Part shown: positions 902-54,776 of the stretch, one piece after another
Numbering within the stretch: position 1 is the first letter of the stretch
Layout: each line of letters begins with the position of its first letter
Notes under the pieces: generated by a model
What the model was told of the DNA's origin: nothing
What the model saw: only the letters and a program-made list of their open reading frames with translations
Database searches by the model: none
Made by a program: the position numbers and the translations under genes
Source of the DNA: Simmondsia chinensis
Taxonomy: Eukaryota > Streptophyta > Magnoliopsida > Caryophyllales > Simmondsiaceae
NCBI GenBank assembly: GCA_018398585.1
Contig: JAGTTD010000002.1
Location: forward strand, 33,100,186 to 33,164,185
Reading direction: 5' to 3'
DNA length: 64,000 bases

Positions 902-1108
902 ATTAAGCGTACTTGGGCAAGAGTAGTACTAGGATAGGTGACTTCCTGGGCAATCCTTGTGTTGCCAACCCTATAAAGTTGGGGGTCTTCGGAAACAACC
1001 TCTCGGCAGGGTTACACCTTAAAGGAGGTAAGGCTGCGTACATCCACCCTCCCCAGACTCCCTTAGGCAGGAGCCCTTGAGACACTGGGTCTGTTGTTGT
1101 TATTGTTG
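902..1108 (+). mobile_element. 5S rRNA-headed SINE, copy a
   Basis: The first 70 bases match plant 5S rRNA from the A-box region onward: TTAAGCGTACTTGGGCAAGA, then GTAGTACTAGGATAGGTGAC, ending near CTTGTGTTGCC, the 5S 3' end. Then follows the SINE body (GTTGGGGGTCTTCGGAAACA, GGTAAGGCTGCGTACATC, GAGCCCTTGAGACACTGGGT) and a TTG-repeat tail. AGTTTTTA occurs on both sides (about 888 and 1111) as a possible short TSD. The 5' end is truncated inside the 5S part. This is the copy that keeps the 5S 3' end best. Confidence 0.85.
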
Positions 1109-6346: not shown

Positions 6347-6487
6347 ACAACAACAACAACAACAAACCCAGTGCTTCAAGGGCTCCCGCATACGCAAGGT
6401 CTCGGGGGGGTGGGGGTGGGATGTATGCAGCCTTACCCCTTCAAGGTGCTACCCTAAAGGGAGGCTGTATCCGAGGACCCCCCAACT
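6347..6487 (-). mobile_element. SINE body, copy b (no 5S head)
   Basis: Read on the minus strand: body from TCAAGTTGGGGGGTCCTCGG through GCTGCATACATCCCA to AAGCACTGGGTTTGTTGTTG with five TTG units. It starts exactly at the body boundary and lacks the 5S head. It splits the second unit of the direct duplication described for 4796-6560. Confidence 0.8.
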
Positions 6488-6624
6488 TGATATTTGCCTT
6501 GATATTTGAGAACAATATTTGCCTTGATATTTGATAGGGTTTGCTTTTTGTTCCTTTTTTCTATTCTCTCTTCTCCCCTTTTGATGAGTGATATTATGCT
6601 CGGGTATAAACTAAAGAAATGTAT

Positions 6625-7230: not shown

Positions 7231-10200
7231 ATGGAAAGCATCAAGCCATTAGGAGATGCTGTTCGCAGTTCATTGCGTTCAGGATTTATCATCAGCAGCT
7301 TGACAAGCATTGTGGAAGAGCTTGTATATAACAGTCTTGATGCTGGTGCAACAAAGGTCAGTTTGTTCCTTGCTTCTTTCCGTTGATATGGCAATATGTC
7401 TCGGTTAAAGCACCTGCGTTTGATGGACAATGAAAATTAGAAGAAGATAGTTCTGAAGACTACAAATTCTGCGACCTGGATTTCTGTCGATTTTCCCCCA
7501 TTTGTTTAAGACTGGAGGCCGTATGCCTTTCTCTTGCTAACAATATCATTCCTTCAAGCAAGCAGATCTTAGATGAAAATGGAATCCTCTGATGTCTTAC
7601 TGGTTGATTTTGAACATTTTCCTTTTATGATAGTGCACTGATGTGCTCATTCTAAAAATGATTGTGCATTTCTCTGGTTTTGTTTCTTTTAGACGGGAAG
7701 AGAAGGAGAACGCGGGGGGGGTGGGGGGGTTGTGTTCTAAGCTGCATTAGGTTGTAACATAAGGAACTCCTGTTGCTCAATTCTTATTTTGGCAATATAA
7801 GTATGGTCATACTTTGGTTCTAACATGTGATTACTGGGCCACTTAACCAGGAAAGTACTTAAAATATTTGTTTCCCGTTTATTGCTCGCAGCATATAGTT
7901 GGCCATTAACAGTTTCCCTGTTCTATCAGATATCAGTCTCAGTTGGTGTTAGCACTGGGTATGTTAAAGCAGAAGATGATGGTTAGTAACAATTTCTCGT
8001 TTCAATTAAGAATGCTTAGCTGATCCGTACTTCTGCTCCAGTTTATTAATGTGTGTCTATGCAGGATCTGGCATAAGCCGGGATGGGTTGGTCTTGTTAG
8101 GAGATCGATATGGTAATTAAACTTTTTGACTTATTATTCTCTGCTGAAATTTGTGCTTGCTTATGGATGATAAGCAAAGAGGTTTTCAATAATGTCTCTA
8201 GGAACATATGCTTCCATTGTGACTTTTGGTATATAAATTTGTATGAGCACTACTACAAATCTCCTTTTTGTGCTTTAAGTATTAAACATCTGATTGTGTA
8301 TCGTGTCATGGAGACATCATAAGACATGGGTGGACCTTTGTGCAGTAAAATTGCTCCATTATGACTTTGAAATCACATTTCAACTATTGAATCCAACCGC
8401 CCTATAAGATCGGGGGTTGGCGACTATGTCTAACCCAGAAAGAAACCTGTCTTCGTACCTGATAATTGGATGCTAAGTCTTGCTTCTCATTCAGTGGTGG
8501 CAGCTATTTCCTATAATGCTATGAAAGGTTAACAAGCAAGTAATAGATGTTGAAACCCTGTAAACCACAATGTTATGCCTATGTTTATAATGAACTTTTG
8601 ACTGTAAAGTCCTCATAATGAATCCAAAGAGACAGCAGTCTCTTTCCTGAGCTGTTTTTGACTCAAATCATGAGCCCTTTAAGTCCTTCATGTATTCAAA
8701 ATTGGGATAAAAAGGAGCCCTTCATAGTACTTATTGATTTTCTAGTAGAATTTGTGTCTTAGAAATTAGGGGACTCCCTTCCAAAGCATGGATTGATGAC
8801 CCTAAAGGTGTGTTTTGTTCATCTCTTTTCTTATCTTTTTTCAGTTTATAGAGTAAAGATTTGAATACATATTTAAAAAAAAAAAGGAAAAAAAGGAACT
8901 TATTTATTGGAATGACCAAAAAAACTTAATAATATAAATCGAGGAATAATGGTAGGTGGTCACAATGGTCAGTGGCGGATCCAGAATTTGTGGCCAGTAG
9001 GGGCACAATGGAAATAGAAATTTATGTCTGCGTGTGTTTGTCAACAATCTAGTATAATAACAGGCAATGACAGATCCAAAAAATTCAATTAAAGGGAGTA
9101 ACTAACAAGTTTCAAATTATGCTCTAAACGTAATAAATAAATTATAATCCGCTACTAAATTGTACATATTTACAAAATTAATCAAAATCAAAGAATATAA
9201 AAACTAAAAATTAATTAATTACACAAAATAACTCAAGTGGGACTAGAAATTAATATAGTAAACTATTTATAACTTTGCTGGAAATTTTATGAGTGATCAT
9301 AAATAGAAAATTAATTGATTTGTCAATTAGAGGACATAATACTGAGCGATTTTTATTACTGTGGGATCCGTGATATTATTATAAAAGTAAAAAAAAATTA
9401 TTATATAATTAATTACCTAAAATTAAATATATAATTATTGAAATAAACTTATAACCAGGGCCGGACATAATCCCAAGTGACCCAAGCAGCCGCTTGGGGC
9501 CCCAAATTTTTGGGTTGTGTTTATCATTATTAATATTATTAAGTTTTACTATTGAATATTTACAATTTGTAGTACATGAAGGGCCCCATTTGGAATTTTT
9601 GCTTGGGGACTCGAAAATGTGCCCTACTTATAACACAATATTAATTAAAAGTAGAGATATTAACATATTAAAAAAATATTGAATGATTATTATTTTATAA
9701 GTTAATAAATGTAACAACAACAACAACAACAACAAACCCAGTGCTTGAAGGGCTCCCGCTCGCTCAGGGTCTGGGAGGGGAAGGATGCATGTAGTCTTAT
9801 CCCATCAGGGCGAGACCCTGACGGGAAGCTGTTTCCGAGGTTTATAAGTTAATAAATGTGTTTAATGTAAAATAGAGCTTTTTATGAAGAGGAGTAGAGA
9901 ACCTATGAAAAAACATAAGAAAAAAATATTAATTAAAAAGTAGAGATATTAAAATATATATAAAAAAAAACTAAATGATTATTATTTTATAAGTTAATAA
10001 ATGTGTTTAATATAAAATAGAACTTTTTATTGAGTGGAGGACCAAAGAAAAAAATTAATGAGAAAAGGGGCGCATGAAGAGTGGAACCTGAGTCCTTGTA
10101 ACCTTGTAAAAGAACCCAATTGTGCACAACCACTAGACCAATGGCCAGAATATACCACTTGAGTGCGGATTATTATATATAAATAAAACCTATGGCATCC

Positions 10201-16200: not shown

Positions 16201-19200
16201 GGAGTTACACAAGTCGGGGCCTAACACAAAGCATTGTCTTCATCATCCATCATCAACCAGAAAAAGATAATTGTAATCCCTATTCACTGTTAAAGAGTCT
16301 TAACAGAGAATTATGATCTACTGATTAATAATAGAGCAATGCTCAGGATTCCTTTTCTTTCCCAGGGAAGTTAACTTTAGCCTTCATCAGAGAAAATTGT
16401 TTTGGTTAGAAGTATATGCCGGTATATATATTAAAGGAAGTCGTATGAAGCTTAATGATTTTAGCCATTGAAAACAAACTTGTTTGTGAAAATGAAATTC
16501 TCATCAAGTTTTGCATTCACTGAGAAAATGAGGGGATTCAGGTTTGTTTGTAAAGTTCCTTAATGATCAATGCTACTACACAACAGAAAAAAAGAAAACA
16601 AGGAAAAATCTTCCTCCATGTTTTCCCTCTAAGAGGCATGAAAAATTGAACATGGTTGCTTTTTCTAGGCAACTACTTGATGCAAGTGAAGGAGCCAGAA
16701 AGTCCACCGGTAAAATGGAGGGCTGGTTGTCCAGTCACTCGACCAGAGGACCTTGTCAAGTTTCAAATGGTCAGTTAACTATTTAAAAGGCTTCAGTTTT
16801 GTTATAGGGTTATGATGTGAAGTTGTCGTGTGTGCAAACAACTTTAATTAATATATCATTATTTTGATTGCAGGGTGTGGATAAATCAAAGAAATCTCAA
16901 GATGAACATATGATACTAGACATCTCTTGTTGTATGCTAAACCTTGCTGGTGAAACATTAGTTCCGAAATCTATCAACAGAAGTTGGCTGGAAAATGCTA
17001 GTGTCCTTCCCCAGGTGGACAGCAAGTTCATTCCAGTTGTGGCTGGTGGTACTCTAGCCGTAATTGACCAGGTATGGAAGCATTATTCCTTTGCTTTTCC
17101 TGCGTGTTTTCAAATGGTTGGTCCCTGTTTATTCATCATTATAGGTTGATAATTGCTGGTTCTCGCATTTGAATACTGTGCAGTGGCATTAAGATGAAGT
17201 TATAGAAAGATCTAAAAGTTGGTGAAAATGGAGACACATTTCTACAGCAGTCTGTGATGGTCAAATGCCCCAAAAACTAAAAGAATTGTAGGAGCTATAT
17301 TAGTGACCTCTGCTATATTGCATACATTGAGTTGAGTTTAGTTGGCTTGAGAATATTAGGATGAATTATGGGGGGTTCTCGGAAACAGCCTCTCTTCAGG
17401 GTAACACCTTGAAGGGGGAAGGCTGCGTACATCCATCCCCCCAGACCCTGCTTAAGCGGAAGCCTTTGGGGCACTAGGAATGTTGCCTTTTGCTTTTACT
17501 TTCAAAATAAAGTGTTTTGGATGTGTTTTGGCGCGGGCAATGGTGTGTGTTGCCACAAAATCTTACGAAAGCCTCAATGCCCAAATTTTGAGGCTATATG
17601 TCTCCACACAGAGCTTTGTGTCGACAAACAGTTTTAACACACAGCCTTGTGTGTCGACACACAGGGTTTGCAGTTTTGGCCGGCTTTGGCGTGGTTTTTT
17701 GTGACATTTGGGAAGAGGTTTTTGGCTTTTTGGAAGGGTTGTGTCTCATCCCAAAAGACGCTTTTGGAAGGGTTGTGTCTCATCCCAAAAGACACTTATG
17801 GATTTATATAAAGCCCCACCAAATCAGATTAAATGGACTTAAAAAAATTACTTTAGAAAATCATATTACTCTCTACTTCTTCCATCTCAGAAATCCATCA
17901 TCTCTACACTTATTCTCACTTTGTTTTTTTGGTTTCGTTGTTTACTCGAGACTATTTCGATAAGGCCAAAGTAAGTCTTTAGGAAAGTGGTTAGCTACAC
18001 ACTTTGAAGCCGCTATATTCTTGTGCCCATTTTATTGAATTTCCCTAAGGCTGTGTTTGGAGCCTGGAATTCCAATTCTGTTGTTTGGTTCACCTGCTGG
18101 AATTGGAATTACAATTCCACTGTCCAATTCTATTTTAACTGAAAATCATAATTTCCAATTCCTTGGGGTGGGGGTAAAGAATTACAATTCCATATTAACT
18201 CTATTGACCTAAAACCCAAAATGACCCCACTTGATTAACCCAAATCCAAGGTGACTCAAAATCTAAAGACTTAAATATAACCTAAAATTTGACTCAAACC
18301 TCAAAATCACCCAAATCGAATGCCTTGAACTTGAAATGACCGAAATCATCTTAGCTCGAAGTTCGAAGTGACCCAAACCCGAGATGACTGAGGTCCAGAA
18401 AATGAAATTACTCGACTTGAATGTGATGTAAATAAGCTGAGCCGAAGTGGAAAATGACCCGACCAAATTGACCCAACACTTAATACGACCCATGCCAAAA
18501 ATGACCTGACCCATCTCAAACTCATGACTTGAAATTTGAAATGATACAACTCATTTATCCCAAAACTAAGATGACTCGAGCTTGAAATGACCTAAATGAA
18601 CTCAAACCCAATCATAATTCGCCTGAATCCCAAAAAGACCTAGCCCGATTAACTGAAAATCCGAGATAACTTGAACACCAAATATCTGACGTGATAATCT
18701 ACCCGATTTGACTCAAAACTCGAATAACTCGACCTTAAAGTGAATCGCTCTGACCGTAATAACTTGAACGCAATGTGAACCACTCCGACCTTAATAACTT
18801 GAACGCAATGTGAACCGCTTCGACCAAAATCCAACAGTAGTTGATTTAAAACTCGAAATACTCCAACTCAATTGACCAAAAATCCTTGATTCGAATCATT
18901 ATTTAACTATAATTCAAAGCTCCTATTCTTTTGATGAACCAAACAATGGAATTTCAATTCCATCAGAATTGGAATTAGAATTGCAATTCCATAGTCCAAT
19001 TCCCATTCCTTGTGCCACACAAAGCCTAAAAGATTATTGGTACATCTCTGAAAGACAAGTACCAACAGAAAATGTATCGTGGTTTTGTACTAGATGAGAT
19101 AAGGAAGGTGTTACGGATGGTGTGGACTTTTAAGTGGCAAGGTAGAATATTACAGAGGTGAATTATTTGACATGTTTGGTGCAAATAATGCAATTATAAA

Positions 19201-21671
19201 GGGAGCACTCATCTGGTTAAGATTAGAGGCATCAGGAAGTGGAAATTAGACGTAAAGAAAAATTGGATAGAGTTTAAGAAAGGTTTTGCAGGCCCTAAAC
19301 TTTTAGAGGATGTCACTTTAGATCAAGTGGGGTAGTAAAAGGCCATTTACAATGTTTGACACTATGTATGGAACTATCGGAGCCAGACACACATCAGGAT
19401 ACCTACAATTTTGATTGAACGGCTGCTGGAATCCCATTTATAAATCTGAGCACTGCTGCATATTTATTTCTTTCTATACACTATTCATGGAATCTAATAA
19501 GTTATGTGGTGGTCGTTACCTGACTTAGGGCTCGTTTGGGATTGCTGTAAAAAAACTGCTTTTTTCAGAAGCACTTTTTGTAAAAGTATTTTTATAAAAA
19601 GTGTTGTTTCTAATAAGCAGTTTGTATTTGGCCAACCAGTAAAGAAGTGCTTATAGTATTATTGTGAGTGTTTGCCCAATATTAAAAAAAGTGTTTTTTT
19701 CTATAAAATTACCAGAAAGAACACTTACAGAAGTCTTTTATAGTTGAAAAAAATCACCATCACCATTTTAAATATTTAATATATTTTTTAAATATTTTTT
19801 ATTATTAAAAATATTTTTTAAATATATAAATATTTCTTAAATATTTTTAATATTTATTATATATTTTAAAATATTTAATTTTTTAAGAAAATTAAAATAT
19901 TTTTAAATATTTTATATATAAAGTATTTGTAAAATATATAAATTATTTTTTAAATATATTAATAAGTTATAAGGTACCTAAAATAAACTTTCTCAATTGT
20001 TTAGTTTTTGCTTCTGTTTCTGCTTAAAAAATAAGCATCAAATTTCTGTCAGCTTCTGCTTTTAATAAAAAGCACTTTTTCTCAGTTGCTAAACACCCTC
20101 AAATCTCAATAAAGTGCTTTTTCTAAAAAAAAGTACTTTTTTCCCTGAAATAAGCAATCTCAAACAGGCCCTTACTTTAGCCTAGCGAAATATGCGATGG
20201 CCATGACAACCTGCTTTGGTAACGATGTGACTGTGGCAACTGTGAACCTGATTTGATTCCTTTGTACTGTTGCATAATAAGAATGTGAACAAAGAGAAAC
20301 AATAGTTGGGCTTAACAACTTGCAAATACAAAGGCATATGTCCTCAGGATTGAGAGCTTCAGATAATTACTACATGATCTAAAGCCAGGGTGTGAACATA
20401 GTGAAACAATCGTTGGGCTTAACACCTTGCGAATACAAAACCATGCATCTTTAGGATTGAGAGTTTCGGATAATTACTACATGATATATCATTATGATGC
20501 GATTGCCAATGTCAAGGATAAAGATGAAAAACGATCTAATTTGCTAGCATATCCTACGGTTACTTCGTGTTCTTGGATGCAACTGCTGATTTTGAATGGT
20601 CACTGGACATGTATTAGTAGATTTGCTGTCAGTTGGAAGTTGTTATATGCACGCAAACACACACTATCACGTTGATTTGGTTGAAGATTGCATTAATATT
20701 TCTACTTTGGATTGTGGTTTCCCTTGTAAAAGGGAAAAAGTACTGTCTTGCTTACTGGGAGGCATTACCTATGCCTAAGTTCACATCAGGTGCCTTATAG
20801 AATTGTCATAGGTTCATGAGATCTGTTGTCCTCCACCTTTGATGAGGCAATGCCTTTAGATGTCATTAGTCAGTATTGTATCTTTCCCTTCCTGCTAGGT
20901 AGCTTTCCCGGTCAATACGTGCATATCCCTGTCCCATAATAGCTGAGGTCGGATTTCTAACTGGTTATCATTATGTTTCACAGCATGCTGCGGATGAGAG
21001 AATTCGACTTGAAGAAATGCGGGAAAAGGTACATACATCTATTGCAATTTTTGTCGTTTGAATATACGTGTCGCTTGTTGCTTGATGCTCGGGCGGTGTA
21101 TTGTGCTTCGCGATGCTATGTGCTTTGATGCTATCTGCTTTGTTGATTTTATTGCTTATTGCTACTGTTTGCTCTCTCCTTGCTGTGTTTGTATGCCTTT
21201 CAAGTTGGGGGTCCTCGGACACAGCCTCCCTCTAGGGTAGCACTCAGAAGGGATAAGGCTGCGTACATCTCATCCCTCCTAGACCCTGCAGTGGTGGGAG
21301 CCCTTGAGGCACTGGGTTTGTTGTTGTTGTTGTTGAATATACAGAATGTCTGGAGCTGAAGTAATGTGTCAATTGTAGGTGCTATCTGGTGAGATGAAGT
21401 CAGTGACCTATCTGGAAGCAGAGAAAGAGTTGGTATACAATCTTCATTCTGCATTCCCTGTTATAACACACTTGAAATTTATTTACATGTTGGAAGGAAT
21501 CAAGGCGGAGTAAAAATCAACAGTTGTATAGCTATTCATACAAACTTTTACAAACATAAGATTAAAAACAGCGTACGTTCCCTTGGAAAACCAGATAGGA
21601 AAGCCACAACCTTTTACATAACATTGCGACTCACTGCTTCTGCGATACCACAATGTCTGCGATCCGATTCC

Positions 21672-21710
<39 letters not shown>

Positions 21711-24700
21711 TGGGACAAGGAGGAGGGAGAGGGTAAGAGGGGGAGAGAGAGGGAGAGAGTGATTTATCTGATTCTCTGAAAGTTTTTGATTGTGTAGGTA
21801 CTGCCTGAGACGGCCTATCAGTTGCTCTACAATTATGCTGAACATATACAGAATTGGGGATGGATCTGTAACATTCACGGCCAAAAAGTTGGTTCATTCA
21901 CCAAGTAAATCTTTTTCTCCTGCTAGTATTTTTCATAGCACAATATAACCTCGATAAATTAATAATCTCAATCTCAATTAAATAATATGTTTGGCTGGTA
22001 AATAATATCTCGATTAGTTAATAAATTTTCATTGTCCCGAGGGTATTAATTTATCGAGGTTATACTGTATTCTGTTAACATGTAAACAAAAGGGGAACTC
22101 TCTCGTCCAGATGATCTCCTGGCTCAAATGCTCACGATGGGTACTTCCATCACCAGCCTCATTTAGGCAATCCCTTGCCCTCCCCCCGAATCAAAATTTG
22201 GCCCAAATGTGATGTACTTATACATTAAAAACTATCAAAGAAACAGAAATTTAGTGATTTTATAGCTATTCATTCTAATTTTGTAAATATAAATTTTTAA
22301 AGCTACTTCAACACATTTCTGCTTGTAATTCTCCCTCGTGTGCAGGAACTTAAGTCTTCTGAATGGACAACCGAATGGTGTCATACTTGTTGCGGTAATC
22401 ATACTTATCGTAGACTATTTGTCTCATTTTTTTGATACACATCAAAAGTGAGAGTCTGAATCTAATCGAATACTCCTTTGCCTTTGGATACTAGTAAAAC
22501 TATTAGCCGTCTGTTACAATGCCCTTCAAAAAATATCTCACGCTTGTCTGACTATAAATACCTAGCCAAATATGACTTTGACATGGCTTCAAGAACCCCT
22601 ATTATGAGCCCATGTCACTTTGTCATCCTTTAAGTATCATGGAGGGGCTATCACGGAGGGTAGCTGATGTAGCAGTTTAGAATATAGAAGCATAATTTAG
22701 CTAACACTAGTGCCACTAGGCATATATGTCTGCCTGTTGGATTTACTTGATATGGCTGTGAGCTGTTATATTGCCAATTGCCACTTTATGATTTCTATTT
22801 GCTTGCTCTGTGCCGTTGTTTTTGCTCTTATCCACCTATGCTTTTACACTTGTATGCTTTTATGCTTTTTATGCTTTTCATGTATGGTTATCAAAATTGC
22901 GAGTCGGATCGTACGATCGTACGATCCCACTATGCCCTACCGACCCAGATCGAGTAAAAAATCGTAAGAAAGTAGACTCGCAACGAAATCGTGTAGGATC
23001 GGTAGAATCGGGGTAGGATCGGTAGGATTGCCGATTCTACACAGATTCTACCGAGTCAATAATAAAAAAATAACATATTTGAGATCTGACACCGATTCTA
23101 CGTCGATTCTACTCCGATTCTACCGATTCTACCGATTCTACCCCGATTCTACCGATTCTACTCCGATTCTACTGATTCTATACGTTATTTTTTAAATTTA
23201 TTTTTTTCAGTTTTTTTTTACTTTCCTCTTCCCCTTTCTCGTTTTTTTCCTCTTCCCTACTCCTCCCCCTCGCATAACCAAACCCTAATCATTCTCTTAC
23301 ATCACACTCTTCACTTATCTTCACCCGCAGCCCTAGCCACCGCCGGTTGCAGCCAACTGACGTCGACCGACTGCCCCAGCCACCCACAGAGGTTTGACAC
23401 CGATCCACGGGCCACACACACACACAGACATAGGTCATTTTCTTTTTAGATAAATTATTGATTTTTGTTTAATTTTTTATTCTTCTAACATATTGAGTTA
23501 CTTGGGTACTTGTTTTGATTTTCATTTTATTTATTTTCAGCTTGATTTTTTTTTTTTTGGGGACTTTTTTGATGTTCTTCATTATATATTTGAGGCTTGT
23601 AATGTGATTTTATTGGATACAAGTTATTGTTTTATATATAAAGTAGAATCTTACGATTCTCGATCCGATTCTGTGATCCCGATCCTGAGTACCCCTCACC
23701 GATCCTATGTAGAATCCCGATTCTGACAACCTTGTTTTCATGCTTCTCAGGTTGGGGGTCCTCGGACACAGTCTCTCTTTAGGGTAGCACCTGAAGGGGT
23801 AAGGCTGCGTACATCCCACCCCCCCGGACCCTGCATGTGGGGGAGCTCTTGAGGCACTGGGTTTGTTGTTGTAAAATAACGATTGTTACTTGTATTGTGA
23901 GCTAACTGTAATGCAATTGGTCATATTACATAATGTTACTTCTGTGGAGGTTCCCACATGACCACTACAAACCATTACCTATGTTCACTACTGGGAACTG
24001 TGATTTGTTACCGTACTGTGAGGAAGATGATCTAAGGGATCCAGGCAGCCTGTTTTCTTCATGTCTTTGCTGACATAATTGTACTGCTGTTGCCCAGGTA
24101 CCCTGTATTCTAGGAGTGAACTTGTCTGATTCAGATTTGCTAGAATATCTTGAACAGGTAAACACATGTTATATTTGCGTCATCCTTTCTTTTTCCATCT
24201 TCTCATAATACCCAGTAATTTGTTTGCATTAGACTTCATTTCTTTTTTCTGATGTGCCAATAGCTTGCTGATACTGACGGGTCATCGACCATGCCACCAT
24301 CTGTTCTTCGAATTCTGAACTACAAAGCGTGTAGAGGTATCATTTTTCTCCTTATTCCTCCAACATCCGTGCCTTCATGATACATGCGAATGGCTAAAAT
24401 ATGCATGTTTCCAGTACAAACATTTAGTTGTTTCTTCCGGTTCGTCTGTCCTAATGTTTAACTTATCTAGCTAGTGAAAGGGCTCTTAATATTTGAGCAG
24501 TGTGTTTAACTTTTGGTTCATCCGTACCTTTGAGCTTGGTTCGATAAGATTTTAGTATATTTGATACTCGGCTCGGCTCAACTCCGCTTGTTAGGCTTAT
24601 CGAGCTGAACCGAGCCGAGCTAGGCTTGTTAACATGCTGAGTCGAGTTCATTATTGAGCTCAATTGAGCTTAAAACCGAGCCCAACTTGTTATCAAGTCG

Positions 24701-25620
24701 AGCTCTGAGCTTTTCAAGTTACTATCAAGCTATTAGTGAACAATTTTCGAACCAAAACTAACTAGTATCGAGCTCTTAACGAGCCCTTAATGTGCTTTTA
24801 ACAAGTTCTTATTGAGGCCTTGTCAAACTGTTCGCGAATGTTAACGAGTCCTAATCGATTTCGAACACAAGTAGTTCATCGAACGTTCAGTTCGTTTACA
24901 CCCCTATGTACAACGCCTTCTTAACAAAACGACATATATTTGCATCTTTTTTCGTGTTAAAATGTTGGGAATACATTATTTGTCTGAGAAAATTAACTCG
25001 CTTCTTGCCCTCAACAATTCTAAAATGGTTATCAATTTCCTCAAAATAAAAAGTACCTAGCTTGAAATGATCAATTATTGAGACCGTTACTAGTATTATA
25101 CTAATTTAACTCAACTTTGCTCACATGTGAGAATAAAGAAACCTGGACATGTTAGAAGAAGATTCATGCAAAGAGTTTCTAAATATTACGTGATTTTAAC
25201 AAAGGGTCTGTTTTAATGGGAAAAATATAGTAAGACCCATTGAATTTTGCAATTAATCACAACACATTCTCTATACTTTTAATTTTAAAAAATAGCCCCC
25301 TGAACTTTATAATTAAACACAACAAATCCTTGCACTTCAATTTCAAAAAATAGCCCCTTGAACTTTGTAAATTAACACAATACACCTCATGCACTTTCAA
25401 TTTCATAAAATGGCCCCCTGAACTTTATTGTACACAAGTCACCCCTCGAACTTTGTTACTAAATATAACACATCCTTTAGACATTTATAAATTTTAAAAT
25501 AAAAAAGTATGAAATTAAAACATTTGAATAAATTATGAAAGATATTTATTTGGAAAAAGCGAAAAGCAAAGCAACATTCCCAGTGTCCCAAGGGCTCCCG
25601 CCTAAGTTGGGTCTTTTTTT

Positions 25621-25657
<37 letters not shown>

Positions 25658-28307
25658 GTTGATGTACGCAGCCTTCCCCCTTCTGGGTGCTACCCTGAAA
25701 AGCGGCTGTTTTCGAGTACCCCTAACTTGATGGGTGAGGACTTTCCAGGAAGTCACCCATCTTGGTGTTACTCTCGCCTAAGCATGCTTAACTTCGGAGT
25801 TCTAGTGGGATCCAGTGCTTGCATGTTGGTATCCTCTTTGGAAAAAGTATGAAAAAATATAATAATAGTTTGAATTTGAATTTTTTCAATGTTCTTAAAA
25901 AAAAAAAATTTAGTATATATTTTCAAAATTTTAATTTTGTTTACTTTTGAGTTTTAAATTTTTTATCTGATTTTAGAATTTATTTTTTAAAAATAAATTA
26001 TTATATTTTCTCTTATATTATTTTTTATGAAAATATAAAAAAATATTTAATTATCTTCTAAATTTATAATATTTTTACTATATTAATTAAAATAATTATT
26101 TTTTGTATATATCCAAAAATCCTCTTATCTTTAATCTAAAAATATAAAACTCATACCTTTTGTCTAAAAACACAATTTTCTATCTTTTGTACAAAACTAA
26201 AAATCCCTGATTTTTAATTTGATGCAAAGTTCTTACCTTTCGTCTAAAAATATAAATTCCTATATTTTGTATGAAGCTAGAAAATCTCTGATTTTTAATT
26301 TGATGGATTTTTTTTATTTTAAATTTATTATTTTTATTTTTATTAAAGTTAAAAATTATTATATTTTTTTAAAAATTTTCTAAATTTTTTTTCATAACTT
26401 GTTTTAATTTCATATATTTTTTATAATTTGAATTTATTAATGACTAAGGGATTAGTTGTGTTTAGTAGTAAAGTTCGGGGGTGAGTTGTGTGTAATAACA
26501 AAGTGCAGGGGGCTATTTTATAAAATTAAAAGTGCAGGGGGTGTGTTGTGTTAATTTGCAAAGTTTAGGGGGCGATTTTATGAAATTGAAAGTGCAGAGA
26601 GTGTGTTGTGTTAATTTGCAAAGTTCGGGGGGCTATTTTATGAAATTGAAAGTGCAGAGAGTGTGTTGTGTTAATTTGCTAAGTTTAGGGGGCTATTTTT
26701 TGAAATTGAAAGTGTAAAGGGTGTGTTGTGTTTAATTACAAAGTTCAGGGGGCTATTTTTCAAAATTGAAAGCTTAGGGGATGTGTGGTCATTAATTGCA
26801 AAGTTCAAGGGGTCTTACTATATTTTGCCCTTTTTTAATTTATAGAAAACAACCTTCAAAAGTAGTCATTTTTCATATAAACACCATAACTTTTCAATTT
26901 TTCAAAAAACGTTTTTTAAAAGTTAAATTCTTTTTCAATCAACCATTTAATTTAACACCGTTAGTTTTCCATTGAGACTACCCGTGTTTTTTTTACATTT
27001 TCTTATACAAAAAAGGAGATAAGCATGCATGTCGGTATTAGCTCACTTGGTAAAGCAATACACCCATAAATGGTCTCTATGTTATGTGTTTGAATCCCTC
27101 CATATGCTTGTTTGTACAGAGATCCAAATCTACACGTTGAGCAACCTTAACAGTATAATGTTTTACCAACTAAGTTAAAACCGACATGTGTTACATTTCC
27201 CCTAATTTTATAGATGACCAAGAAAAATCATACGTGTAACCCAAAAGATGTACTAACTATGTTAGTATAGGTACAACAACAATACAACAGCCCTAATGCC
27301 TCAAGGGCTTCCACTTACGCAGGGTCTGGGGTTAGTATAGGTAGTTGATTGAAAATATTTAAAACCTTTATTGATTTTTTTTTTTTTGAAAATTTGAAAA
27401 ATTATTTTAATTAAGTGAAAAATAACTTCTTTTGAAGGTGGTTTTTTGTTAAAAAATCCTTTTAACAAATCAATTATTTTGAGACAAAGGGAGTGCTCCC
27501 CAAGTATACTACGGCTCTCTCTTTCTTTGAAATTCAAGGTTACTTTTGAATTGCACATCCAGATGCTGGTTCTTATTTGTTCCAATTTCTCACTTTTATG
27601 TGATTTTATGATGCAGGTGCAATAATGTTCGGGGACAAGCTCCTACCTTCAGAATGTTGCCTCATTGTTGAAGAGCTCAGGCGAACATCACTATGCTTTC
27701 AGGTAATTTTGGTTAGTTGTTCAGAGCCTCTGTTCTGCAATGCAATATCCGAATCCATGGAATCAAGTAAAGGTGGTTCTGTAATACGACCATTACGTGA
27801 CATATTCGACCTATGCACAATTGGCCTTAATGTAAGTGATATTTTTGTAATGGGTCAATTTTATAAATCTATTTGTGTTAAAAGCTATAAAAGGGGCCTT
27901 ATGAAGTAAGGCATTTGTTTTTTTTTTTTTTTTTGGTTTTATATGAAGGATTGTACGGTTGTTCATTCTAATTTTTGCAAATATAAGACTTAGAAACTCT
28001 TGAAAGACCCCAAAGAGTCGCTGCAACATCTGTCACACCCCGCTTCTGTGTCAACCATTCCCAATTGATGCAATTGCAAACTGCGATTTGATTCATTCAA
28101 TTACACTAAGAAAATTACTGCTTGCAGTGTGCTCATGGGCGCCCAACGACAGTGCCTTTAGTTAATCTGGAGGCCTTGCACAAGCAGATAGCGCAACTTG
28201 GAACCTGGAATGAGGGTCCAAACACGCCATGGCATGGACTCTGCAGACAAGAGATTAGTCTTGAGCGTGCCAACCAGCGGTTAAATGTGGCTAGAGGTGG
28301 CGGTTGA
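7231..28307 (+). CDS. MLH3: DNA mismatch repair protein MLH3
   Basis: MutL homologue that pairs with MLH1 in meiotic crossover formation and mismatch repair in the nucleus. I assembled 26 coding exons with matching phases: 7231-7356, 7930-7981, 8065-8112, 11287-11441, 11540-11594, 11703-11760, 11879-11971, 12057-12219, 12309-12324, 12442-12647, 13468-13537, 13642-13701, 13840-15558, 15644-15746, 15825-15910, 15988-16026, 16669-16769, 16874-17071, 20984-21028, 21379-21432, 21798-21904, 22346-22394, 24098-24157, 24264-24336, 27617-27702, 28128-28307. Total 4002 nt, 1333 aa, longer than Arabidopsis MLH3 (about 1.17 k aa as I recall it). N-terminal GHKL ATPase: E30/N34 with LDAGAT 36-41, DDGSG 58-62, GFRGEA 94-99, GTTVTVRDLF 143-152. 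A long divergent linker is encoded mostly by the 1719-nt exon 13. C-terminal endonuclease: DQHAADERIRLEE at 1115-1127, ACR 1243-1245, CAHGRP from 1275. The start is chosen at the conserved MESIKPL N-terminus. Exons 15-17 lie in poorly conserved sequence and are less certain. All catalytic motifs are intact, so the gene looks functional. Confidence 0.93.
8113..8969. other. MLH3 intron 3, left part, no other gene seen
   Basis: Ordinary AT-rich intron sequence. No repeat with defined ends was recognised before the hAT-type insertion at 8970. Confidence 0.5.
9456..9626 (+). mobile_element. hAT MITE nested in the larger hAT element (171 bp)
   Basis: Starts CAGGGCCGGACATAATCC and ends GTGCCCTA, a decayed CCCTG end. 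Subterminal GCTTGGGGCCCC at left is echoed by inverted GGGCCCC/GCTTGGGG words at right. A perfect 8-bp TSD, CTTATAAC, is present at 9448-9455 and 9627-9634, as expected for hAT. Confidence 0.8.
9633..10030 (+). repeat. Local tandem duplication carrying a SINE
   Basis: The block AATATTAATTAAAA, AGTAGAGATATTAA, GATTATTATTTTATAAGTTA, AATAAATGTGTTTAATRTAA occurs twice: 9633-9875 (interrupted by the SINE) and about 9925-10020. The SINE is in one copy only, so the duplication is older than the SINE or spread without it. Confidence 0.6.
9713..9840 (-). mobile_element. SINE body, copy c, with 19-bp TSD
   Basis: Minus-strand SINE body with a TTG-repeat tail (seen as ACAACAACAACAACAACAAC on the plus strand) and CCCAGTGCTTGAAGGGCTCC. 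A perfect 19-bp TSD, TTTATAAGTTAATAAATGT, lies at 9694-9712 and 9841-9859, so the insertion limits are exact. It has no 5S head and ends at the CCTCGGAAACAGC part of the body. Confidence 0.92.
10250..10715 (+). repeat. GGTGG/CATGGTGG-rich degenerate repeat
   Basis: Within MLH3 intron 3, a G/T-rich stretch made of variants of CATGGTGGTG and GAGTCATGGTGG. The His/Pro-rich open frames on the minus strand here come from the repeat, not from a gene. The source element was not recognised. Confidence 0.55.
11442..11539 (+). other. Probable GC-AG intron (MLH3 intron 4)
   Basis: Protein conservation places the exon end at GTCTTGAAG, followed by GCAAGG. The next exon starts after TCCTTCAG with GGTTCAAATTG. 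AG|GCAAG is the known GC-donor consensus. A GT donor six bases downstream (AGG|GTGGCT) would add two residues (Ala-Arg) and fits the family less well. Confidence 0.6.
12309..12324 (+). other. 16-nt micro-exon (MLH3 exon 9)
   Basis: GCAATTCAATACATAT, flanked by TTTTTTGCAG and GTATCC, encodes A-I-Q-Y-I plus the first base of Y. It joins SSISK (exon 8) to YINSRFVVKGP (exon 10) in frame. The segment matches the conserved AxQYVYINSRF stretch that follows the ATPase domain in MutL proteins, so skipping it would shift the frame. Confidence 0.75.
17365..17478 (+). mobile_element. SINE body, copy d (5'-truncated)
   Basis: In MLH3 intron 18. Recognisable words: TTCTCGGAAACAGCCTCTC, GGGTAACACCTTGAAG, AAGGCTGCGTACATCC, CAGACCCTGCTTAAGC, GGGGCACTAGGAATGTTG. 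No 5S head and no clear TSD. Confidence 0.8.
17485..18048 (+). repeat. LTR-like repeat fragment, copy 2
   Basis: Right part homologous to 180-320 (see that entry). It includes an imperfect repeat of GGAAGGGTTGTGTCTCATCC (about 17737 and 17766), a TATA-like GGATTTATATAAAGCC, and GTGTGTCGACACACAG. It is cut at 18048 by Harbinger-like element B and may continue from 19027. Confidence 0.45.
18049..19026 (-). mobile_element. PIF/Harbinger-like nonautonomous element B (978 bp)
   Basis: Left end GGCTGTGTTTGGAGCC. The right end read inverted is GGCTTTGTGTGGCAC. TAA flanks at 18046-18048 and 19027-19029. The interior lacks coding sequence and consists of degenerate units around CCAAATGACC/CTCGAA words. 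Its right arm, inverted, matches the left arm of element A (5156-6166), so A and B are one family in opposite orientation, both in MLH3 introns. Confidence 0.75.
19528..20171 (+). mobile_element. PIF/Harbinger MITE C (644 bp)
   Basis: Left end GGGCTCGTTTGGGATTGCTG. The right end inverted is GGGCCTGTTTGAGATTGCTT. TTA TSDs at 19525-19527 and 20172-20174. Subterminal AAGCACTTTTT words recur inverted. The AT-rich centre has no ORF. A clear MITE in MLH3 intron 18. Confidence 0.85.
20283..20492 (+). repeat. Tandem duplication, 107-bp period
   Basis: Two adjacent diverged units share GTGAACA, GAAACAAT, GTTGGGCTTAACA, CTTGC, GGATTGAGAG and GATAATTACTACATGAT. Unit anchors GTGAAC are at 20285 and 20392. 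In MLH3 intron 18. Confidence 0.8.
21068..21332 (+). mobile_element. SINE copy e with a non-5S head
   Basis: The TSD-like repeat TTGAATATAC at 21058-21067 and 21333-21342 encloses about 135 bp of T/G-rich sequence (GCTTGTTGCTTGATGCTC, GATGCTATGTGCTTTGATGC), then a full SINE body (CAAGTTGGGGGTCCTCGGAC, AAGGCTGCGTACATCTC, GAGGCACTGGGTTTGTTG) and TTG repeats. If the TSD is right, this copy carries a head unrelated to 5S rRNA. In MLH3 intron 19. Confidence 0.7.
21674..21709 (+). repeat. G homopolymer, 36 nt
   Basis: An uninterrupted G run, followed by purine-rich GGGAGAGAGAGGGAGAGAG, sits just upstream of MLH3 exon 21. It is not part of a SINE body. Confidence 0.95.
22884..23734 (+). mobile_element. 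Mutator-type nonautonomous element, copy 1 (851 bp)
   Basis: Left end GGTTATCAAAATTGCGAG. The right end read inverted is GGTTGTCAGAATCGGGATTC. Nearly identical 9-mers flank it: TTTTCATGT (22875-22883) and TTTTCATGC (23735-23743). A 9-bp TSD indicates Mutator. Many CGATTCTACC/GGTAGAATCG units occur near the left end. No ORF. The family recurs at 28700-29499. Confidence 0.7.
23747..23873 (+). mobile_element. SINE body, copy f
   Basis: Body from TCAGGTTGGGGGTCCTCGG through AAGGCTGCGTACATCCC to GAGGCACTGGGTTTGTTGTT. It follows directly on the right TSD of the Mutator-type element. The pyrimidine-rich sequence left of that element (TGCTTTTATGC words) may be its original head, split by the Mutator insertion. 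Confidence 0.8.
24515..24910 (+). repeat. GAGCCGAGC-type dispersed repeat
   Basis: In MLH3 intron 24. Rich in GAGCTC/GAGCCGAGC words and ending GTTCAGTTCGTTTACACCCC. Similar words surround the hAT element (31060-31168 and 34393-34440). Class undetermined, no coding capacity. Confidence 0.45.
25218..26830 (+). mobile_element. Fold-back (Mutator-like) element with tandem-repeat arms
   Basis: The left end GGGAAAAATATAGTAAGACC is nearly the inverse of the right end (GGGCAAAATATAGTAAGACC). Flanking 9-mers TGTTTTAAT (25209-25217) and TTTTTTAAT (26831-26839) differ at one base. The right arm (26450-26790) holds about five copies of a ~62-bp unit containing GGGGGCTATTTT, AAATTGAAAGTG and GTGTGTTGTGTTAATTTGC. 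The left arm carries the inverted version. The AT-rich centre has no gene. A 5S-headed SINE is inserted in the left half. Confidence 0.75.
25560..25836 (-). mobile_element. 5S rRNA-headed SINE, copy g (near full length)
   Basis: A perfect 11-bp TSD, TTTGGAAAAAG, at 25549-25559 and 25837-25847. Read on the minus strand: GAGGATACCAACATGC, GGATCCCACTAGAACTCCGA, AGTTAAGCATGCTTAGGCGA, GAGTAACACCAAGATGGGTG, ACTTCCTGGAAAGTCCTC, that is almost the whole plant 5S rRNA. Then comes the SINE body (GTTAGGGGTACTCGAAAACA to GGGAGCCCTTGGGACACTGG). A 34-nt G run (25623-25656, C on the element strand) is expanded at the body's CCCC position. The tail is poorly TTG-like. Confidence 0.92.
27028..27190. repeat. 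Inverted pair of tRNA-like sequences
   Basis: Plus strand: GTCGGTATTAGCTCACTTGG (box A-like) and TGTGTTTGAATCCCTCC (box B-like). Minus strand of the same stretch: GTCGGTTTTAACTTAGTTGG with a weaker box B. The two tRNA-like units face each other as an imperfect palindrome. Not a functional tRNA gene: no complete cloverleaf. Likely SINE-derived. Confidence 0.4.
27274..27330 (-). mobile_element. SINE 3' end only, copy h (57 bp)
   Basis: A perfect 13-bp TSD, GTTAGTATAGGTA, at 27261-27273 and 27331-27343. The insert is only the tail and last part of the body (ACAACAACAATACAAC, GCCTCAAGGGCTTCC, GCAGGGTCTGGG), an extreme 5' truncation typical of reverse transcription that stopped early. Confidence 0.88.
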
Positions 28308-30544: not shown

Positions 30545-30609
30545 AATCTAAAAATAATTTAACTATATCTCAATGTATAAAAAAAGAAAAAAGCTAAGTA
30601 ATCCAACTA

Positions 30610-30810
30610 AAGGAAAGGAACATACCCAGTGCCTCAAGGGCTACCGCCTACACAGGATCTGGGGGGGGCAGATGTACTCAATCTTCCTCCTTCAGGGTGT
30701 TAACCTGAAGAGAGGCTGTTTCCCAGTGCTTCCAACCTGAAGGTGAGGACTTCCCAGGAGGTCACCCATCGTAGTACTACTTTCGCCCAAGCACGTTTAA
30801 CTTCGAAGTT
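30610..30810 (-). mobile_element. 5S rRNA-headed SINE, copy i, 16-bp TSD
   Basis: A perfect TSD, CTAAGTAATCCAACTA, at 30594-30609 and 30811-30826. On the minus strand it starts inside 5S: AGAACTTCGAAGTTAAACGT, GCTTGGGCGAAAGTAGTACT, ACGATGGGTGACCTCCTGGG, AAGTCCTCACC, then the body (TTCAGGTTGGAAGCACTGGG to GGTAGCCCTTGAGGCACTGG). The 5S C-box region GATGGGTGACCTCCTGG is intact. Confidence 0.93.
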
Positions 30811-31168
30811 CTAAGTAATCCAACTATATGTCAATATATCAAAAAATAATTCAACTTTATTTTCTAACAAAAAAATAACCCACCCCTAACTTTCTACTAA
30901 AAAATAATTCAACTTTAACTTTTCTACGAAAAATAACCAAACTCTAAAATCAATCTAAAAATAATCCAACTCTAAAAAATTTGATTTAAAAAATACTGAA
31001 TTGTGATGCTGCGAAAGCATATTTTTCTTTTACATATTTTTGGTTTGGCTTGTTCTCTGTAGGCGGCCTCATTTAGTAAAAGAGCTGAGCAAGCATAGAA
31101 ATGCGGCTTGGTTAGATAAATGATACCAATATCGAGCTAGTCTCATTTAATTAACGAGTCAAGCCGAG

Positions 31169-36499: not shown

Positions 36500-36624
36500 T
36501 ACTACAACAACAACAAACACAAAAGGCTCCCGCCTGAGTAGAGTTGAGAGGTGAGATGTACGCAGTCTTACCCCTTTAAGGTGTTACCCTGAAGGGGTTG
36601 TGTTCGCAAGCCTCAATCCTAGAA
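36500..36624 (-). mobile_element. SINE body, copy j, about 19-bp TSD
   Basis: TSD ACCAAGGAATATRATATAC at 36481-36499 and 36625-36643, one mismatch. Minus-strand body: GGTAACACCTTAAAGGGG, AAGACTGCGTACATCTC, GAGCCTTTTGTGTTTGTTG, then TTG units. Diverged, no 5S head. Confidence 0.8.
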
Positions 36625-42779: not shown

Positions 42780-42906
42780 AGGTTTGGGCGCCTTTCAGAA
42801 ATAGCCTCTCTATAGGATGCTCTGTAGGGGTAGGGCTGTATACTTGTCACCGTCCCCAAACCTTGCCTTGACGGGAGGCCTTTGAGGCACTGGGTTAGAT
42901 GTTGTA
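42780..42906 (+). mobile_element. Diverged SINE body, copy l
   Basis: TTAGGTTTGGGCGCCTTTCA, AGAAATAGCCTCTCTATAGG, GTAGGGCTGTATACTTG, CGGGAGGCCTTTGAGGCACT, GGGTTAGATGTTG. Starts at the body boundary and has no 5S head. About 320 bp downstream of the B8 stop. Confidence 0.7.
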
Positions 42907-44432: not shown

Positions 44433-44487
44433 GAAACAGCCTCTCTTTAGGTTAACACCCTGAAGGGGGAAGGCTGCCTACATCAAC

Positions 44488-44541
<54 letters not shown>

Positions 44542-44587
44542 ACCCTGTGTAGGCGGGAGCCCTTAAGGTACTGGGTATGTTCCTTTT
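44433..44587 (+). mobile_element. SINE body, copy n, with 50-nt C run and 16-bp TSD
   Basis: A perfect TSD, TATGGTAAAGTTGGGA, at 44417-44432 and 44588-44603. Body GAAACAGCCTCTCTTTAGG, AAGGCTGCCTACATCAAC, then 50 C (44490-44539), then GGACCCTGTGTAGGCGGGAG and TACTGGGTATGTTCC. The 5' end is truncated inside the body. Confidence 0.9.
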
Positions 44588-47316: not shown

Positions 47317-50300
47317 TCAAAGCTGCATATCATTCAAAATTTCGTCAATGATTTCGCCCGTGATTAAGTATTCTAACTCCTTACCCAGGACATTAATCTC
47401 CTCATCAACAAGATTAAGCCAAGGTGTGACATTCAGATCATGAGCCATCAAATCATTGAGCGAGTACGAGGATGGTTCATCCCGAGGGTATAAATACTCA
47501 CTAATCATCTCCCACACCTGAGCCAACAGCTTTTTACCTGTTAGCATTGTTGGTCTGCTTACTCGTCTTATGAATTTGGACAATATCCTGTGTGGCCGGA
47601 GTAGATTTGCAAGTGTTTCATTCAATAAATCGAATAATAATTTATGTTGTAGAATTCGTTCATTGTGATCCTTGGCAACTCCATGATCTTCGTTGGTTGA
47701 TGTAGTGTAAGTGTCTTCTACCTTTTCAAATACCCAGTTGCTGATGGGTTTTACAAAGGGATCCCATCTTGAAAAGGATTGATTCCATGAACCTTCATAT
47801 AATCCAGAAGCAACGAGCAAATCTCGGATATAGGCTTCCGCTTCATCTTCCAAGTCAAGTACCTCGGCTTCTGAATGATCGTCTGTTATAGTTGTGACTT
47901 CAGATCCATCGTACTCAAGTCGTTTCAATTGCTTCCTCAACTCTACAACATAAGAATTTGATGAGAAAAATCAAATGATCAACCTTTATATAAGGATCAG
48001 AAGATCCGCATATAGTTGTTTACAAATGGAACATGGGTTGCAGAAGCATCATGATGTTAGTTTTACGCAAGCAGAGACCTACTTCTTTGAGGCAATACAT
48101 GATTTACGGTTCAAAATGAAGGCGATATTTCAACAAAGTATGTGGTCACTAAAGCTATGCTCAGAGTCTTTCAGATTGAGCGTGAGCAGTCCAAACATAA
48201 ATATAACAACTCTGATTAGCTTAATAGATGAAAGGATAAAGGAATTTAATCAAGGTGCACGTATAAAGCATTTACCATTGTAATATAGAAACAGAGATGC
48301 ATCAAAGATCTCCTTCAACAACAACAACAGTCCCAGTGCCTCAAGGGCTCCCGCATAAGCAGGGTCTGGGGGGTAGATATATGCAGCCTTCCCCCTTCAG
48401 AGTGCTACCCCGAAGAGAGGCTGTTTCCGAGAACCCATCAAAAACCTCCTTATACCAAGAAAACAAGAAAAAGTTCACCAACTTCCTCCATTTTTCCCTT
48501 CAATATTGGAACTAGACTGTACAAGTAACATTTATGCAGTCATGGATTTAGTATTGCGTGGATTGCAGAGAACAACTAACTCAAAAACAGAATTTTTCGA
48601 TATAAATAGACTTATAACGATTATCCTCCAACTATTGACAAATGGATGATGGAAATTAATTTTTATACAAAATCTAGTCCACCACACAGCTTGTGACTTG
48701 TACAGATATTGCATGTTTATGCCGCAAGAAAAGGTCATGGAACCAAATATTGAGGCACAAGTGACACATTAAACCCGAGAAATTCTTGAGAAAATCCAGG
48801 TGACATGCTCTATGCGGCGGACTTGCTTCTTAGGTTGGGGGTCCTCGGGAACAGCCTCTTTTTAGGGTAGCCCCCCGAAGGGGGAAGGCTGCGTATATCT
48901 AACCCCCCCCCCCCCCGACCGTGCTTAGGCGAGAGCCCTTGGAGGCACTGGGTTTGTTGTTGTTGTTGTAAATTCTTGAGAAAATATCATTTAATTTCTT
49001 TTTTGACTTACCATTAAGATTAGAGCTGATCTCCCTGAAAACGTTACCAACACTGTGATCTCCTACTGAGGTCACATCAGAGGTTGATAATGGGCTGGGA
49101 TGATCTGCTGGCTTCCATAACTCGTCATGTGCGTAACTGCAGACAGATGCAGGACTAGGTGGCACCTCGGTAGCATTCTCCTACGGCACAATAACATGTA
49201 AGATAGTGATATAGCCCAGGGAGGAAAACCAAAAAATTAATTGAGAAAAGAGATAGGTGAAACTCTATACTTACTTGCCTATCAGTCAAGGTCATAGCTG
49301 GAGACACACTCTCTACATCTTTCATTGAGTCGAATTCGATATCTTGTGGTACATCAAATGACTGGAACCTTCTACGAAACAACCTTCCTTTAAGAGTGAA
49401 ACTATACTTGATGCTGGAGACCTTCTCTCGGAAATTGAATCTCTCTTTCTTTTGACCATTTTCAAGAGCTTCATGTCTCCTCTTGATGTGAGCCCCAGTT
49501 GAAATATGCCGATCCTCCAGAAGGAGCTTTCCGAATGAGGTTCCAGCTACAGGAGCAGACAAAGATCTAACCAGGCTCCTAGGGGAGCACTTGTCTTGGG
49601 TTATTCTTTCATCGTTTAATTCATGTCTGAAGGATCTTACTTGTGCTTCACCGTCGTAATTGTTATCAAGCCAATGGTGCCTTCCGTGTTCAGCATTCAA
49701 AATATCTCTTGCTTGCTCGAGTCGTGCCCTTGGACTATCGAACGTGGATGGACTCAAGCTGCCACATGAGGAGTTCTGAAGACCAGGATAATTTTCTCCA
49801 TTGAGGACATTCTTCAGCCTATCTGACAAGAATTTCTTTGTATGTCTGCTGATGAATTTGGGAGAGTTTGGCTCATTGAGCTGGATTTCACTTTGATATG
49901 ATCTTGTAGATTTGGATCGATGCAAACTCGTATCATGCTCCCCGACAACACTTTCTCTAACCTGCTTCGTGAAATGCTGATGAGAATCTCTTGAATAAGA
50001 TGGTTTTTCTTTGTAAGGGGTCTCAATCCCTCCACCTCTAACCATAGGGCTCTTCCTTAATGTTTTCCCTTGCAGCTCGCACGTCAGCCTTTCCTTCACC
50101 TCCTCAAGTAGATCTTCTATGCAGTCTCTACCTTCAACAGAGCAAGAAGAACTGACCCAAGACTCATCGTTGGTGTTAAAACTGTCAGGACCAGGCTTCA
50201 AAATTACTATCCTGCTCCTTGTAGGAGCAGAAGATCTGTCAGAGCTCTTATCAGAATCAATCAGGGAGAGTTGGTCGAAGTCTCCACCTGGGCTTCTGCT

Positions 50301-54464: not shown

Positions 54465-54522
54465 TACAAAAATCATTAAATAATGTCATCTTCATTATTA
54501 TTATTATTATTTTGGACAAAGT

Positions 54523-54764
54523 AAAAAAAAAAAAAGTAACACATCCAGTGCCCTCAGGGCTCCCATCTAAACAGGGTTTAGGAGGTAAATGTATGCAGCC
54601 TTCCCCCTTTAGAGGCTGTTTTTCAGTACTTCCAACCTGAGGGTGAGGATTTCCCAAGAGGTCACCTATCTTGGTATTGCTCTTGTCTAAACGCGCTTAA
54701 CTTCGAAGTTCTAATGGGATTCGGTAATAGAACGTTGGTACCCTCTTTTTTTTTTTTTTTTTTT
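54523..54764 (-). mobile_element. 5S rRNA-headed SINE, copy q, 12-bp TSD
   Basis: A perfect TSD, TTTGGACAAAGT, at 54511-54522 and 54765-54776. Minus strand: AGAGGGTACCAACGTTC, GAATCCCATTAGAACTTCGA, AGTTAAGCGCGTTTAGACAA, GAGCAATACCAAGATAGGTG, ACCTCTTGGGAAATCCTCAC, then the body (CTCAGGTTGGAAGTACTGAA to GGGCACTGGATGTGTTAC). An A run (T on plus, 54746-54764) precedes the head and a second A/T run follows the tail. The 5' start GAGGGTACCAAC agrees with copy g, so it probably marks the true 5' end. Confidence 0.92.
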
Positions 54765-54776
54765 TTTGGACAAAGT

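Follow-up and report, generated by a model that had tools for sequence, protein, structure and literature searches.

Simmondsia chinensis carries a real plant SINE with a 5S rRNA head, one that is probably undescribed. We are highly confident that it represents a high-copy SINE family that has captured a 5S rRNA gene or transcript as its pol III promoter head, set on a body that also exists apart from it. The fusion of 5S and body is directly observed, as are three subfamilies that differ in junction and tail, TSDs placed outside the head, truncations that carry TSDs, and dispersal through the genome.

Copies with a 5S head in the window

The window, by which we mean the entire stretch of 64,000 nucleotides under analysis, holds four 5S-headed copies, here called A to D. 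All four are found where the first-pass annotation had placed them, and the borders it gave for B and C are exact. Copy A (902–1108, plus strand; subfamily T1) comprises a 5S part at 903–965, a body at 973–1105 and a TTG tail. Copy B (25560–25836, minus strand) has the 5' end GAGGATACC, a C-tract of 34 and the tail GTTGCTTTGCTTTT; its head and tail are T2-like, but the last part of the 5S is missing, as in T3. The 5S rRNA-derived head of B (25727–25837, minus strand) matches Rfam RF00001 at 48.9 bits, and its TSDs lie at 25549–25559 on the 3' side (CTTTTTCCAAA in minus-strand reading) and at 25837–25847 on the 5' side. Copy C (30610–30810, minus strand; subfamily T3) has its 5S part at 30810–30747 and the tail GTTCCTTTCCTTT, with a 3' TSD at 30594–30609 (TAGTTGGATTACTTAG, minus-strand reading) and a 5' TSD at 30811–30826 that adjoins the truncation point. 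Copy D (54523–54763, minus strand; also T3) has a 5S rRNA-derived head at 54634–54749 (minus strand; RF00001, 57.7 bits) that starts with GAGGGTACC at 54745, just after an A-run of about 18; its tail is GTTACTTTTT and its TSDs occupy 54510–54522 (3' side; ACTTTGTCCAAAA, minus-strand reading) and 54764–54776 (5' side).

The proposal that these heads follow 5S rRNA is confirmed by two kinds of comparison. Against the Rfam 5S model, which has a gathering score of 38, the matches of B and D lie above that score and those of C and A, at 28.1 and 25.9 bits, below it. Aligned to a host 5S gene from a tandem array on contig C8, the copies show identities of 84% for B (95 nt aligned), 93% for C (68 nt), 85% for D (79 nt) and 84% for A (63 nt). 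Their local scores are 87–130, whereas none of the 500 dinucleotide shuffles made of each copy scored above 33. The copies had been said to begin with 5S sequence; 5S is present in all four, but A and C are truncated inside it. Copy A is 5'-truncated and keeps 5S nt 52–114, and C is 5'-truncated at about 5S nt 42, with nt 38–41 common to the element and the TSD, leaving B and D as the only window copies with a 5' end.

The TSDs measure 11 bp in B, 16 bp in C and 13 bp in D, while that of A is imperfect (13/15); the perfect TSDs of 11 and 16 bp announced for B and C are therefore correct, and the one announced as 12 bp, for D, is one base longer. In B, C and D these TSDs enclose the 5S part together with the body, as expected of retrotransposed units and not of decayed 5S genes, and a 5S part outside the TSDs, which the first-pass annotation had named as a refutation, was seen in none of the copies with TSDs. 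A TTG-repeat tail had been attributed to all four copies and belongs to A only, whereas B has a tail of the GTTGCTTT type, C of the GTTCCTTT type and D of the GTTACTTT type (YTTT-like).

Two other features of the window were recorded. Polyprotein fragments with Pol_BBD and retroviral SH3-like domains, presumably Copia-type, lie at 59965–61480 on the plus strand. Two adjacent open reading frames with DUF4378 and VARLMGL domains (47317–50987, minus strand) are probably one gene, which we take to be of a plant type.

Subfamilies and abundance in the genome

The family is larger, with more subfamilies, than four window copies could reveal. The assembly comprises 831 Mb in 35 contigs, and our sample of 264 kb consisted of the window and 20 stretches (L011–L030), these being one 10-kb stretch from each of 18 contigs, taken 1.5 Mb in from the contig start, plus 10 kb on either side of the window. 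Loci picked for holding 5S genes (L001–L010) were left out of the count of 5S matches. At E ≤ 1e-3 the sample contains 20 such matches, four from the window and 16 from the other stretches, a density not to be equated with genome copy number, as the 1.5-Mb stretches are near contig ends and possibly richer in SINEs than average; all 20 matches continue into the SINE body. Three further interior stretches yielded one 5S-headed copy in one (L031) and none in the other two. A search of the genome with copy D returned 3,983 first-look candidates, of which 40 (copy D itself and 39 others) were scored, all with E ≤ 3.9e-33.

The 20 copies fall into three groups, assigned by eye from the alignment and not from a tree, with seven copies in T1, seven in T2 and six in T3. 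Where its 5' end is kept, T1 starts with AGGGTT(T/C)ATTTACCAGG; it retains the 5S to near the 3' end (GTGTTGCCAACCCTATAAGGTTGGGG), its junction does not coincide exactly with the end of the 5S, and its tail is TTG-like. T2 starts with ACCTAAGAGGGTACCAACACGCAAGCACC and has a GTTGCTTT-like tail, and six of its seven copies can be aligned to 5S up to the final nucleotide (consensus CACCCC), after which the body, TCAGGTTGGGG, starts immediately; the seventh member is window copy B, which is without the 5S 3' end. T3 has lost the last part of the 5S (GTCCTCA, then CCCTCAGGTTGG) and has a GTTCCTTT-like tail. The regular junction of the group is present in 18 of the 20 copies, the exceptions being window copy B and the T1 copy L026:7412, in which a deletion spans the junction. 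Genome-wide, allowing at most one mismatch, the T2 junction occurs 1,531 times and the T1 junction 2,301 times, while the reversed patterns that served as controls for both gave 0 matches each.

TSDs were sought by an ungapped search with a score cut-off of at least 10, using mismatched upstream/downstream pairs as the control. The cut-off was reached by 13 of the 20 5S-headed copies compared to 10 of 380 mismatched pairs, although in two of them (L013:4081 and L014:1525) the match depends on T-runs; the remaining seven copies have no TSD scoring at least 10. Those TSDs that reach it are 11–25 bp long, the variable length typical of a SINE. The family is also short, non-coding, dispersed and high in copy number, as SINEs are, its units being about 190–280 bp and its body present at 53 loci in 264 kb. 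In several copies the TSDs abut the 5' truncation point (copy C at 5S nt ~42, the body-only copy at 44433–44587 within the body), as expected of target-primed reverse transcription, and the combination of 5' truncation and TSDs is consistent with mobilisation by a LINE.

These observations bear on two other ways in which 5S sequence and a repeat might have come to be adjacent. The 5S parts could be dispersed or decayed gene copies that neighbour the repeat by chance; in plants, pseudogenes of 5S are common close to its arrays, and contig C29 does hold a solitary 5S copy that is almost intact. This account is, in our view, already refuted by the recurrence of the junctions in such numbers against controls of 0, and the fact that all 20 matches enter one body, with 18 using one of three regular junctions, together with good TSDs around head and body in 13 of 20, leaves it with next to no probability. 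The other candidate source is Cassandra, an LTR-TRIM of plants that likewise carries pol III promoter sequence derived from 5S, whose remnants (solo LTRs) might be mistaken for the units seen here, or whose LTR instead of 5S might have furnished the SINE head. Cassandra is LTR-flanked, with a primer-binding site and TSDs of 5 bp, whereas the present units have 3' tails, 5' truncations and much longer TSDs at their ends, which in 13 copies stand at both ends of head plus body and leave no LTR pair. Passages in PMC10853983 and PMC7215508 describe Cassandra as widespread in vascular plants and as bearing a 5S-like stretch, but the portion shared with 5S is there given as about 70 bp (PMC10853983), and the T2 copies follow 5S to its last nucleotide in six of seven cases; we regard a Cassandra origin as very improbable.

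As in SINE3 elements, the 5' part of the family is homologous to 5S rRNA including the A box, intermediate element and C box. A head that aligns to 5S no better than chance had been named beforehand as grounds for rejecting the family, and the opposite was found: over nt 25–105 the majority consensus of T2 is identical to the host 5S gene at 78/81 positions, T1 at 76/81 and T3 at 73/80, the T3 consensus being weak at the 5' end because half of its copies are truncated there. Individual copies diverge from the consensus of their own group by 6.9–18.0%. Taken over the copies, identity to the host gene is lowest at nt 1–24 (155/326) and stands at 362/430 for nt 25–49, 138/157 for nt 98–105 and 152/215 for nt 106–119; at the positions that we take to be the promoter elements within these heads, the A box (266/294) and the intermediate element (109/120) give the two highest values and the C box gives 297/345. 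Since the C box is hardly better kept than its neighbours (nt 25–49 and nt 98–105), selection on the promoter is only partly visible. MFE folds of single heads gave no consistent 5S-like shape.

Two side observations concern the anatomy of the element. By eye, the 5' end of each subfamily is complementary to its own junction (AGGGTT with AACCCT in T1, GAGGGT with ACCC(C)TC in T2 and T3), which is a lead only, because four of the pairs come free from helix I of 5S. The C-tract in the middle of the body has in several copies grown to roughly 20–50 C (window 25623–25656 and 44433–44587; L016:1901-2037; L024:6414-6494), which suggests an unstable homopolymer seeded by the element.

The body without a 5S head

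Body sequence was found at 53 loci in the 264 kb, 20 with a 5S head and 33 without. Many of the 33 are 5'-truncated, and a few have some other leader sequence inside the TSDs, such as L016:3175 and the window copy at 21199. TSDs scoring at least 10 accompany 18 of the 33 compared to 59 of 1,056 mismatched pairs, though at least two of the 18 (L022:3 and L021:147) look like simple-sequence matches.

Eleven of these places lie in the window. On the plus strand, the copy at 44433–44587, with a T3-like tail and a long C-tract, has a perfect 16-bp TSD (TATGGTAAAGTTGGGA) at its truncation point, and that at 48829–48968 has a perfect 16-bp TSD situated 33 bp upstream of the body match. At 21199–21332 (plus strand, TTG tail) a 10-bp TSD candidate 131 bp upstream encloses a non-5S leader. 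On the minus strand, the last part of the body at 27286–27331 has a perfect 13-bp TSD, the copy at 36506–36601 a 19-bp TSD with one mismatch, and the copy at 48316–48436 a 16-bp TSD with two mismatches; beside the truncation point of the copy at 9721–9839 (minus strand) we identified the TSD ACATTTATTAACTTATAAA by eye, the automated search having chosen a longer match further upstream instead. No clear TSD was seen at 17369–17491 (plus strand, T2-like tail), none was found at 6351–6491 (minus strand, TTG tail), and none was convincing at 23746–23872 (plus strand, TTG tail) or for the degenerate 3' part of the body at 42826–42895 (plus strand).

The third refutation named by the first-pass annotation was a library match to a tRNA-headed family; in this genome, the body-only loci gave no sign of a tRNA head. 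Within up to 160 nt upstream of the body, ARAGORN reported a tRNA at 0 of the 33 loci, and a scan with motifs that we take to represent the A and B boxes found paired boxes upstream at 0 of 33, compared to 0.4 expected from shuffles. The tRNA-derived head of a SINE2 is thus not in evidence, the 20 headed copies having 5S and the 33 others no tRNA. T-rich leaders, partly shared, precede the body at window 21199–21332 and 42826–42895, L016:3175-3296, L026:9780-9916 and L022:3-78; these may represent other SINE heads, or else a helper LINE's 3' end.

Origin of the head and relation to known elements

The host has two 5S arrays on C8, near 4.69 Mb (L001) and 6.41 Mb (L010), in opposite orientation, and the pair of 5S genes that were compared differs at positions 12, 24 and 106. 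The solitary 5S copy on C29, at G000:C29:34924734, differs from the C8 array gene at 3 of 119 bases. It is full-length and is followed by TTTACAA and then by the 5' end of a T3 SINE (L009, that is G000:C29:34924300-34925300; unit 425–806). By eye, TATATTAAA occurs on both sides of this unit (L009:425-433 and 798–806), a possible 9-bp TSD whose left half adjoins an AT repeat. An exact search for the pattern of this joint gave a single occurrence genome-wide, and mismatched or T1-type joints would escape such a search. This chimera is compatible with reverse transcriptase having recently jumped from SINE RNA onto 5S RNA, and it could also have arisen if a SINE landed beside an existing 5S copy.

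If the body were the 3' end of a LINE, the 5S-headed copies might be chimeras formed repeatedly as reverse transcription switched template from LINE RNA to 5S RNA, and not members of a self-propagating SINE family. The C29 unit demonstrates that a 5S-plus-SINE chimera exists, the T2 junction falls at the end of the 5S, and 33 of 53 body loci are without 5S, a few with other upstream sequence inside their TSDs, all of which would suit such an origin. Against it, three regular junctions with group-specific differences in head, body and tail need propagation of the fused elements, and two of the three junctions number in the thousands (1,531 and 2,301), such that we assign repeated chimera formation only a small probability.

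For the SINE family that we favour, we propose a cycle in which TFIIIA, TFIIIC and pol III would assemble on the internal A box, intermediate element and C box, every full copy thus carrying a type-1 promoter of its own. The RNA would run through the body into the TTG or YTTT tail and would be copied back by a LINE reverse transcriptase through target-primed reverse transcription. As the T2 body stands directly after the last 5S nucleotide, the head was probably gained through a jump of the reverse transcriptase from body RNA onto the 5S RNA 3' end. A fuller proposal, that a native plant SINE body took its 5S head by template jumping at the 5S RNA 3' end, that the process has been caught in the act, and that the result is a plant SINE3-like class of its own, is one we advance tentatively and think somewhat doubtful.

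SINE3, reportedly the class to which Kapitonov and Jurka assigned the 5S-derived SINEs of animals in 2003, likewise combines a 5S-derived head containing an internal pol III type-1 promoter with a body, a 3' tail and TSDs. The likeness described here is one of architecture. SINE3 hosts are animals whereas the host here is a plant and the head matches its own 5S, and an origin independent of animal SINE3 seems likely. The 3' body, with GGTAAGGCTGCGTACATC...CACTGGG(T), presumably resembles the plant Angio-domain, the shared 3' domain of the Angio-domain SINEs that Seibt et al. are said to have described from flowering plants in 2020, and T1 adds a TTG tail to the resemblance. Those elements differ in being tRNA-derived, as plant SINEs are described in a passage of PMC9033089, where the present family has a 5S head.

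Fusions of 5S to a SINE are also described, in other kingdoms, for Aspergillus fumigatus (5S-related SINEs, in a part of PMC5063351) and for lepidopteran SINE3 such as HaSE3 (in a part of PMC10886601), and are likened to the present family by description only. Among the open-access matches listed, 5S SINEs are recorded for animals and Aspergillus and none for a plant; subscription journals or repeat databases may hold one. A statement in PMC3095306 places 5S-homologous sequences among SINE3 elements 'including plants', the citation for plants being the Cassandra paper, and two places in PMC8825457 name 5S as a possible SINE head, neither of them in a plant. The plant SINE tool presented in the latter seeks tRNA boxes A and B in its de novo route and drops near-identical matches to Rfam RNAs (PMC8825457), and 5S-headed families may therefore be missed elsewhere.

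A passage of the 2024 Cassandra study offers animal SINEs as the example of non-autonomous retrotransposons gaining a 5S-type promoter (PMC10853983). A plant SINE with a 5S head means that such a promoter gain happened in plants too, at thousands of copies, and gives the element a different built-in promoter from the expected tRNA front end. It also bears on the origin of Cassandra, which is speculated in a passage of PMC10886601 to stem from a SINE3 inserted into an LTR; if that is true, a plant 5S SINE would be the kind of donor speculated for the 5S part of Cassandra.
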